From: Candidatus Moraniibacteriota bacterium
Lineage (GTDB): Bacteria; Patescibacteriota; Minisyncoccia; Moranbacterales; UBA1568
Length of the DNA: 46,204 nt
Direction: 5' to 3'
NCBI GenBank assembly: GCA_013334575.1
Contig: JAAXXG010000008.1
Span: 1-46,204 of the forward strand
In this document: piece after piece, positions 12,467-13,213 of the stretch
Layout: each line of letters starts with the position of its first letter
Position numbering within the stretch: the stretch's first letter is position 1
Position numbers and translations under genes: made by a program
Notes under the pieces: generated by a model
The model's database searches: none
What the model was told of the DNA's origin: nothing
Seen by the model: only the letters and a program-made list of their open reading frames with translations

Positions 12467-12740
12467 CGCTGTGGGCAGGGAGGGAGAAATCCCCTCCCGG
12501 GAGATTTCTCTCCTTCGGGCCGGAGCGCTGCGCACGCTCGCGCCCTTCTCATCCCTTCACTATTTTCAATAACGACTACCACACCCGACGTATGAAACGC
12601 TGAGCACGGTTTTCGCTGTGGGCAGGGAGGGATTCGCCCATTCGGGCCGGAGCGCTGCGCACGCTCGCGCCCTTCTCATCCCTTCACTATTTTCAATAAC
12701 GACTACCACGCCCGACGTATGAAACGCTGAGCACGGTTTT
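12467..12740. repeat. Tandem repeat derived from the tRNA-Tyr 3' end: units at 12467-12613 and 12614-12740, third partial unit entering tRNA-Tyr at 12741
   Basis: CGCTGTGGGCAGGGAGGGA...GCCGGAGCGCTGCGCACGCTCGCGCCCTTCTCATCCCTTCACTATTTTCAATAACGACTACCAC(A/G)CCCGACGTATGAAACGCTGAGCACGGTTTT occurs twice nearly verbatim; its left edge recurs a third time as the tRNA-Tyr tail. Confidence 0.93.
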
Positions 12741-12745
12741 CGCTG

Positions 12746-12829
12746 TGGGCAGGGAGGGATTCGAACCCCCGAAGGCACAAGGCCGGCAGATTTACAGTCT
12801 GCTCCGTTTGACCGCTCCGGCACCTACCC
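12746..12829 (-). tRNA. tRNA-Tyr (anticodon GTA), intact, long variable arm
   Basis: GGGTAGGTGCCGGAGCGGTCAAACGGAGCAGACTGTAAATCTGCCGGCCTTGTGCCTTCGGGGGTTCGAATCCCTCCCTGCCCA. Confidence 0.94.
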
Positions 12830-13087
12830 GTTATCAACTTCCAAACTCTCCCTCAGTCTTTTTCGAAGATCTTTCTTTCCGTCGCTTGTTTTCAGAAAAC
12901 GTTCCCGCCGTTCCGCTTCCGACTTGTAAGTATACGCTTCGTAGCACAGAAGCATGAGTGGTCGTCTCGATTTCGTCGATTCGACATTCCCGCTCCGATG
13001 CTCATCCATCCGCCTTTTCAGGTCTCCCGTCATTCCGACATAAAACTTCCCATCGTTCCCACTCCTCAAAATGTACACGTAATACAT
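12824..13087 (-). CDS. GIY-YIG nuclease domain protein (UPF0213-like), stop codon inside tRNA-Tyr
   Basis: MYYVYILRSGNDGKFYVGMTGDLKRRMDEHRSGNVESTKSRRPLMLLCYEAYTYKSEAERRERFLKTSDGKK; YVYIL...FYVGMT is the GIY-YIG core. ORF-track extension 13088-13207 is translated tRNA. Confidence 0.93.
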   Translation of the reverse strand: MYYVYILRSGNDGKFYVGMTGDLKRRMDEHRSGNVESTKSRRPLMLLCYEAYTYKSEAERRERFLKTSDGKKDLRKRLRESLEVDNG

Positions 13088-13109
13088 AAGAAGAACAAGG
13101 GATTCGCCC

Positions 13110-13148
13110 CGCATGCGCGGGGCGTCCGGCGCATGCCGGACGAACCCT
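13110..13148 (-). repeat. Double hairpin element splitting a tRNA T-arm: GGGTTCG-[TCCGGC ATGC GCCGGA]-C-[GCCCCGC GCAT GCGGGGC]-GAATCCC
   Basis: Two adjacent perfect hairpins flanked by the two halves of a tRNA T-stem, upstream of the GIY-YIG start. Confidence 0.85.
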
Positions 13149-13152
13149 AAAT

Positions 13153-13213
13153 CCGAAGGCACAAGGCCGGCAGATTTACAGTCTGCTCCGTTTGACCGCT
13201 CCGGCACCTACCC
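13153..13213 (-). pseudogene. Truncated tRNA-Tyr copy (5' 61 nt identical to intact gene)
   Basis: GGGTAGGTGCCGGAGCGGTCAAACGGAGCAGACTGTAAATCTGCCGGCCTTGTGCCTTCGG matches 12829 leftward, then diverges before the T-arm. Confidence 0.93.

Follow-up and report, generated by a model that had tools for sequence, protein, structure and literature searches.

We describe a very small genetic element that appears to have repeatedly entered tRNA genes in many bacterial groups and that is quite probably a selfish element of the homing type with tRNA genes as its specific target, made up of a one-domain GIY-YIG open reading frame (ORF), at least one GC-rich junction palindrome and a copy of the target tRNA. 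Such an element would survive because it replaces the essential tRNA that it breaks. If this reading is true, the element ranks among the smallest complete mobile elements known (~300-500 bp), invading essential genes with a working substitute. It would also offer a concrete mechanism for the horizontal replacement of bacterial tRNA genes, as seen at tRNA-Ala between sister species, and would account for the numerous small GIY-YIG genes and tRNA fragments found in Patescibacteria. The analysis is centered on the window, the whole 46,204-nt stretch of DNA from a Candidatus Moraniibacteriota bacterium, and extends to 57 genomes of the same order and to named genomes from other phyla.

Architecture of the tRNA-Tyr locus

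Read on the minus strand, the locus comprises a tRNA-Thr(TGT), the 5′ part of a broken tRNA-Tyr, a T-arm split by hairpins, a GIY-YIG ORF and an intact tRNA-Tyr, so that all four parts of the tRNA-Tyr architecture outlined in the first-pass annotation could be located. The broken 5′ part (nt 1-61; 13153..13213, minus strand) shows 100% identity with 12769-12829. The match, previously put at 61 nt, extends over 62 identical nt when one flanking base (13214) is included (13214-13153 against 12830-12769), and the broken copy aligns with a score of 61 versus a null maximum of 10 for shuffled tRNA. The 5′ half of the split T-arm (AGGGTTCG; 13141..13148, minus strand), assigned by sequence and by block alignment to tRNA-Tyr nt 62-66, is followed within the T-loop by two perfect palindromes, hairpin 1 (TCCGGCATGCGCCGGA; 13125..13140, minus strand) and hairpin 2 (CGCCCCGCGCATGCGGGGCG; 13105..13124, minus strand), and then by the 3′ half of the T-arm (AATCCCT; 13098..13104, minus strand), aligned to tRNA-Tyr nt 67-75. 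The outer pair of hairpin 1 is altered on both sides in the related genomes G001 and G005, from T-A to C-G. The ORF (12824..13087, minus strand) encodes a UPF0213-like GIY-YIG nuclease of 87 aa, and its TAG stop falls inside the 5′ end of the intact tRNA-Tyr(GTA) (12745..12829, minus strand; ARAGORN; Rfam 54.9 bits), the functional or replacement copy.

Beyond the intact copy, the tRNA-Tyr 3′ end, from the T-loop onwards (nt 67-85), recurs at 12618..12636 on the minus strand (score 19 versus a null maximum of 10), preceded by a GC-rich stretch. A 127-bp unit carrying a tRNA-Tyr 3′ end plus flank is present in two tandem copies (97%) at 12506..12759 (minus strand), and an additional copy of the acceptor 3′ end (CCCTCCCTGCCCAC; 12471..12484, minus strand), identified by sequence and belonging to repeat family D4, is possibly the resident 3′ end. 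Because the 3′ end recurs 3′ of the intact copy, the broken tRNA-Tyr has 3′ remnants too, and the GIY-YIG gene and the intact tRNA-Tyr are flanked by pieces of the broken gene, with its 5′ half on one side and 3′ pieces on the other. A stretch resembling the 127-bp repeat (gggatgagaagggc...) also lies 3′ of tRNA-Tyr in G004, without a GIY-YIG gene there.

The whole arrangement is found with diverged sequence in two other assemblies (G001, locus L065, and G005, locus L076), and an assembly artefact, which had been named as a possible source of the 61-nt copy, is therefore unlikely. In G002 (L069) the GIY-YIG gene and the intact tRNA-Tyr lie at a contig end. The gene thus occupies the tRNA-Tyr site in the window's genome, G001, G002 and G005, and is absent from it in G004. 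Within the genus, the divergence of the GIY-YIG gene equals that of a neighboring host gene (pS 0.81 versus 0.75), and we accept vertical inheritance for the tRNA-Tyr element there. The two tRNA-Tyr 5′ copies are identical within each of the window's genome, G001 and G005 and differ between the window's genome and G001, a pattern that suggests gene conversion between them; taken by itself, the identity of the copies in the window is compatible with recent duplication or with gene conversion.

A single-domain nuclease

The window protein matches the PF01541 profile at 61.6 bits, against a cut-off of 22.6. Profile searches with the window-linked protein yielded PF01541 and PF10544 only, with no Y1 (HUH) transposase. 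Residues Y5, Y16, R26, H30 and E62, which we take to be the catalytic Tyr, Tyr, Arg, His and Glu of I-TevI, are invariant in 26 tRNA-linked proteins, and purifying selection acts on the nuclease gene (dN/dS 0.035-0.14 for those related pairs where it could be measured). An AlphaFold2 model (pLDDT 87) searched with Foldseek gave 1zg2 (UPF0213) as best match, followed by Slx1 and the catalytic domain of I-TevI. Both the sequence and the model describe the 87 aa as a single domain, with no separate DNA-binding domain.

GIY-YIG genes in the window's genome and order

The window's genome (1.13 Mb, 99% complete) encodes four small GIY-YIG proteins and a further GIY-YIG domain within a reading frame of 463 aa that we take for UvrC. 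Three of the four small genes lie at tRNAs: tRNA-Tyr, tRNA-Glu(TTC), where the layout is like that of tRNA-Tyr with the break in the anticodon loop, and tRNA-Ser(GGA), with split pieces on either side. The fourth (L003, contig C16) belongs with about 12 relatives to a clade surrounded by REP-like repeats of several types, GTCATTCCGACCGAG...GGGATGACA being one, which suggests a partnership between nuclease and palindrome. Partial same-strand copies occur within 600 nt of 11 of the 40 tRNA genes examined in this genome, most of them without a GIY-YIG gene, which is present at only 3 of those 11.

For the survey, 57 genomes of the order were searched with PF01541 and loci were chosen by domain score, regardless of tRNA proximity. 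The expectation that relatives of the gene would lie next to tRNAs held for about half of the small GIY-YIG loci: 61 of 119 distinct small genes have a same-strand tRNA (60) or tmRNA (1) no more than 350 nt away. In 47 of the 119 an intact same-strand RNA gene starts within 350 nt downstream (46 tRNA, 1 tmRNA), and in 14 a tRNA lies upstream. The GIY-YIG stop codon falls between -39 and +12 nt of tRNA nt 1 in 39 genes, and all 79 tRNAs near the surveyed genes are on the same strand, with 0 on the opposite one. None of 30 genes of the control family GT2 lay near a tRNA, and 4 of 25 HNH control genes did, all in one conserved tRNA-Leu(TAA) arrangement. This HNH ORF (L307, L310, L311 and L312 in G052, G046, G010 and G020, respectively) sits between tRNA-Cys and tRNA-Leu(TAA) in the three loci that were read; it stops a few nt short of the first nt of tRNA-Leu, and in L310 a 3′ fragment of tRNA-Leu follows downstream. 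These ORFs possibly represent an HNH counterpart of the GIY-YIG element.

Block alignment revealed tRNA half-copies at 40 of the 61 linked GIY-YIG genes, although these sites are not all independent because some are shared by clades. Upstream halves start exactly at tRNA nt 1 in 30 of 35 cases, and inserted hairpins lie mostly within or beside the D-loop, the anticodon loop or the T-loop. The T-loop of tRNA-Tyr, initially read as the target, is indeed the one split in the window, but it does not delimit the range of the group, which extends to many isotypes, broken at the D-loop, the anticodon loop or the T-loop, as well as to tmRNA and rRNA. The hairpins first noticed in the window T-arm are likewise present there, and have to be seen as a regular part of the arrangement.

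In these genomes, half of the small GIY-YIG genes lie off tRNAs, at other targets or REP-like repeats. Rfam searches of the 58 unlinked genes placed three further genes at tmRNA and one inside 16S rRNA, with two contigs giving a location inside 23S rRNA, and just three weak tRNA-fragment matches were found at these 58 loci. The ORFs inside rRNA are on the sense strand (L052 in 16S; L079 and L094 in 23S), and the two 23S proteins (L079.0 and L094.0) are sisters from different genera. Small same-strand GIY-YIG genes about 100-200 nt from tmRNA (L061, L080, L099, L125 and, from named genomes, L180, L188, L228, L242, L244) span several phyla, and three of them form one clade. Another clade (L063, L082, L115, L133, L137, L142, L143) has a common upstream stretch around GTTAAATAATTTTAAA in unrelated hosts and possibly targets a protein gene at its 3′ end, and a further one (L038, L053, L085, L121) has the common upstream motif GTAGTGAAA(A/C)TTC.

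Empty and occupied sites

Relatives lacking the insertion, whose existence the first-pass annotation had proposed checking, were found: the positions occupied at tRNA-Trp and tRNA-Ala are empty in sister species, and G004 lacks the gene at tRNA-Tyr. Five species of the genus share an identical (75/75) tRNA-Ala(TGC) gene. The sixth species, G001, has a single full-length tRNA-Ala at the site, 91% identical to the resident gene, within syntenic flanks whose identity to those of G005 is 96.4% (1386 nt) and 92.5% (1407 nt). The G001 site reads as resident nt 1-36, a 424-bp insert and resident nt 53-75, the insert containing the GIY-YIG gene, a full foreign tRNA-Ala, flank and a hairpin. The intact tRNA-Ala of G001 is foreign and was therefore, as far as these alignments indicate, brought by the element, which supports the initial proposal that a small homing-type nuclease element entered a tRNA and brought or regenerated a complete copy; tRNA-Ala is the only site showing a foreign replacement. 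In the window's genome, a 3′ remnant of the foreign tRNA-Ala type (GGAGGTCACCGGTTCGAATCCGGTAGGGTCCACCA; C22:23282-23315, L351) lies just downstream of the resident tRNA-Ala and is likely the footprint of a lost element.

At tRNA-Trp, the alignment of empty G003 with occupied G004 runs to tRNA nt 36 and resumes from nt 1, leaving in G004 an insert of ~297 bp with nt 1-36 repeated; the left breakpoint is the same when G002 is compared with G005. Occupied G004 has an intact copy that equals the tRNA-Trp of empty G003, loop included. Protection of the element through a recoded intact tRNA is hence unsupported, and self-immunity is not explained by recoding.

These alleles also bear on an addiction module, in which the GIY-YIG protein would destroy the resident tRNA, or the gene encoding it, and the intact tRNA linked to the nuclease would be a resistant replacement, in the manner of a toxin and its antidote. 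The physical linkage of an isotype-specific nuclease to an intact tRNA, and the foreign, diverged tRNA at Ala, would fit such a module, yet the linked tRNA can equal an unlinked resident (tRNA-Trp in G003 and G004) or the broken copy (in the window), and the GIY-YIG enzymes of known function are, to our knowledge, cutters of DNA. We regard this explanation as very improbable.

Target choice on the nuclease tree

Mapping tRNA isotype onto a maximum-likelihood tree of 54 tRNA-linked proteins required 22 changes, versus a mean of 39.2 (minimum 34 of 300) for shuffled labels, and mapping host family onto the same tree required 24, versus 24.3. For the 33 proteins with an assigned loop, some of these labels having been assigned by eye from block alignments, the invaded loop changes 3 times (the minimum possible being 2) against a shuffled mean of 11.0 (minimum 8), and host family 14 times against 14.5. 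The phylogeny of the nuclease therefore tracks tRNA isotype and loop, not host family. Three tRNA-Glu elements from three host families, for instance, have nucleases in a common clade, a site after nt 35 in the anticodon loop and similar double hairpins. These comparisons document target fidelity and spread between host families at the sequence level. Vertical inheritance alone was rejected for the group as a whole, since the host-family signal is absent from the nuclease tree.

The L127 protein (G024) resembles the Ser D-loop clade in its N-terminal half and the T-loop clade in its C-terminal half, and its insertion is in a D-loop. It looks chimeric, hinting that target choice may reside in the N-terminal half. 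Clade-specific choice of tRNA and loop makes the group a natural series for studying site selection by a single-domain GIY-YIG enzyme.

Palindromes at the junctions

Double palindromes occur at the Tyr, Glu and Ser sites. One 20-nt palindrome, CCTGCCTGCCGGCAGGCAGG, was found at 42 sites in 19 of the 57 genomes, and its reversed control at 0; 11 of 19 sampled sites are near a tRNA (≤600 nt). Its loci include L100, L128, L238, L211 and L275-L293, with a one-base variant in L110. It lies in the D-loops of tRNA-Leu, -Asn and -Ser, and is identical in a tRNA-Arg of Maribacter (Bacteroidota). Hairpins also occur beside tRNAs without a GIY-YIG gene, at Thr(ggt) in G003 and G004 and at Leu in L277 (G033), where a near-full-length tRNA-Leu copy with the palindrome in its D-loop comes after an intact tRNA-Leu(TAG), the nuclease being absent.

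The palindromes may protect the split copy, may be products of repair or may be mobile in their own right. The third possibility is the main rival explanation: the true mobile unit would be the palindromes (REP- or double-hairpin-like), mobilized by GIY-YIG proteins that would act on DNA in hairpin or cruciform form, much like Slx1 on branched DNA, and tRNA loops would be favored landing sites at which survivors keep one intact tRNA. The GIY-YIG-free hairpins at Thr(ggt) and Leu, the partial copies at 11 of 40 tRNA genes in the window's genome for only 3 GIY-YIG genes, the dispersal of a single 20-nt palindrome over 42 sites and several tRNAs up to that of Maribacter, the GIY-YIG clade living among REP-like repeats and the presence of Slx1 among the fold neighbors are all in its favor. 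It leaves unexplained, however, why nuclease clade predicts tRNA isotype, why the orientation is invariably sense and why a complete foreign tRNA is carried, and at some occupied sites, such as L066, no clear hairpin separates the gene from the 5′ half. On balance we consider it improbable that the palindromes are the mobile unit.

Distribution beyond the order

Using a narrower GIY-YIG alignment as query against named genomes, we found tRNA- or tmRNA-linked relatives in many Patescibacteria and in Omnitrophota, Cloacimonadota, Ignavibacteriota, Bacteroidota, Kiritimatiellota, Marinimicrobia and a Clostridia bin, with 105 tRNA or tmRNA genes within 200 nt on the same strand and 2 on the opposite one. 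In the isolate Maribacter huludaoensis M208, an intact tRNA-Arg and its terminator are followed by the GIY-YIG gene, the 3′ part of tRNA-Arg, into which two hairpins are inserted, and a repeat of the terminator; carrying its own version of the element, M208 makes the system testable in a named isolate. An uncultured Flavobacteriaceae locus (L243) has three consecutive GIY-YIG genes around a split and an intact tRNA-Arg, apparently nested insertions. A phage vehicle was rejected, with only 2 relatives in 2.9 million viral contigs and 4 weak phage matches.

It could be argued that no mobile element is involved, and that the loci are decaying tandem tRNA duplications with a hitch-hiking GIY-YIG gene, or misassemblies, given that tRNA clusters readily duplicate and that the data are almost all metagenome assemblies. 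This we hold to be extremely improbable: breakpoints cluster at loops, the nuclease phylogeny follows the target across host families, and a foreign tRNA-Ala lies between two resident halves. Misassembly in particular was rejected, as the arrangement recurs, diverged, in other assemblies and in the isolate M208.

Proposed mechanism

For a homing-type element, we propose that the putative nuclease would cut or nick one loop of the resident tRNA gene, be it the T-loop, the anticodon loop or the D-loop, the choice presumably being constant per nuclease clade, and that the break would be repaired, by homology, from the element-bearing copy. The resident tRNA would be left split, with its 5′ half upstream and often its 3′ half downstream; the intact tRNA of the element would take over its function, and the insertion would therefore be tolerated. 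Hairpins may mark or protect the split copy. If insertion is templated by tRNA homology, the constant sense orientation would follow. Against homing speak the size of the protein (~87 aa), which, unlike Seg or Tev enzymes, lacks a DNA-binding domain of its own beside the nuclease (Seg enzymes carry an additional DNA-binding part), the conservation of the same loop in the intact tRNA and the fact that standard homing requires no hairpins. The half of the small GIY-YIG genes lying off tRNAs, and the restriction of a foreign replacement to tRNA-Ala, also count against it.

More tentatively, and rather less likely than not, these loci could define a class of bacterial elements in which a minimal GIY-YIG protein recognizes a particular tRNA gene by its loop, perhaps via tRNA-like folded or cruciform DNA, with palindromes as a working part and replacement of the host tRNA gene as outcome. 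Such a class would drive turnover of tRNA (and tmRNA or rRNA) genes in Patescibacteria, Bacteroidota, Omnitrophota and others without integrase, transposase or intron.

Comparison with known systems

A search of mostly open papers on GIY-YIG proteins with CPR and tRNA, REP or palindromic repeats returned no bacterial precedent, and novelty is accordingly provisional. A REP/RAYT system was rejected, as the linked protein does not match a Y1 (HUH) transposase. Group I and II introns were also rejected: at the gathering threshold, Rfam returned only tRNAs and no intron at L001, L002 and L004, as expected for a free-standing gene. Integrative islands that target tRNAs through tyrosine integrases similarly restore an intact tRNA after insertion, but the element described here has no integrase, spans less than 500 bp, breaks tRNAs at several loops and carries a complete tRNA; between the tRNA copies of the window there is no integrase-sized ORF, the GIY-YIG gene being the only family match. 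UPF0213 proteins (PDB 1zg2, 1ywl) are nearest to the window protein in sequence and fold, yet the solved members are named hypothetical proteins, and we know of no link between UPF0213 and tRNA.

Short double palindromes in structured RNA genes and spacers also occur in the mitochondria of fungi and sponges, as double-hairpin and repetitive hairpin-forming elements (PMC2800124). Likened here by description only, these elements lack a nuclease gene and a replacement tRNA and reside in another compartment. A 2024 survey of CPR rRNA insertions reported GIY-YIG ORFs in non-intron insertions (PMC11270868), that is, the same domain in a structured RNA gene of the same bacterial group, again without an intron. 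That paper places them outside homing spread and tRNA has 0 occurrences in it, whereas the present elements involve tRNA genes, target fidelity and a replacement tRNA.

The architecture had at first been considered to lack nameable kin, but a relative in behavior exists in SegB, a free-standing GIY-YIG homing endonuclease of T-even phages encoded in the phage tRNA cluster (PMC13096335; PMC2988022; Brok-Volchanskaya 2008). SegB resembles our element in lying beside tRNA genes, cutting inside them, favoring inheritance of its own tRNA region and driving tRNA duplication. Read as its reverse complement, the SegB cleavage motif RAWTSGAAC (PMC13096335) gives GTTCSAWTY, the T-loop sequence, and it is at this position that the tRNA-Tyr of the window is split. 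As a GIY-YIG enzyme shown to cut within tRNA genes, SegB lends independent support to homing. It differs in being a phage enzyme that sits between tRNA genes instead of splitting one and supplying a replacement, with many cleavage sites rather than one isotype, and these sources are not known to describe palindromes at its junction; donor alleles of free-standing GIY-YIG enzymes are reportedly cut poorly (PMC13096335), which may bear on why the intact copy would escape cutting. Occupied and empty alleles of one site, as in homing, are documented here at Ala and Trp.

Fungal mitochondrial mORFs replace gene ends, as in Allomyces atp6 and Glomus atp6, atp9, cox2 and nad3 (PMC3630166). They too combine an endonuclease gene, GIY-YIG in one case (atp9), with a foreign piece replacing the disrupted part of the target, a resident remnant persisting beyond the insert (PMC3630166). 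Foreign replacement sequence within the insert is seen in the tRNA-Ala of G001, the tRNA-Tyr copies of the window being identical. The mORFs differ in affecting mitochondrial protein genes and replacing only their 3′ part, whereas here a whole tRNA copy is supplied to bacterial chromosomal tRNA genes, with hairpins at the break. The element works like a Seg-type free-standing homing endonuclease combined with mORF-like gene-end replacement, and is a member of neither group as defined, because it has no second DNA-binding domain and targets bacterial tRNA genes with a whole replacement gene.
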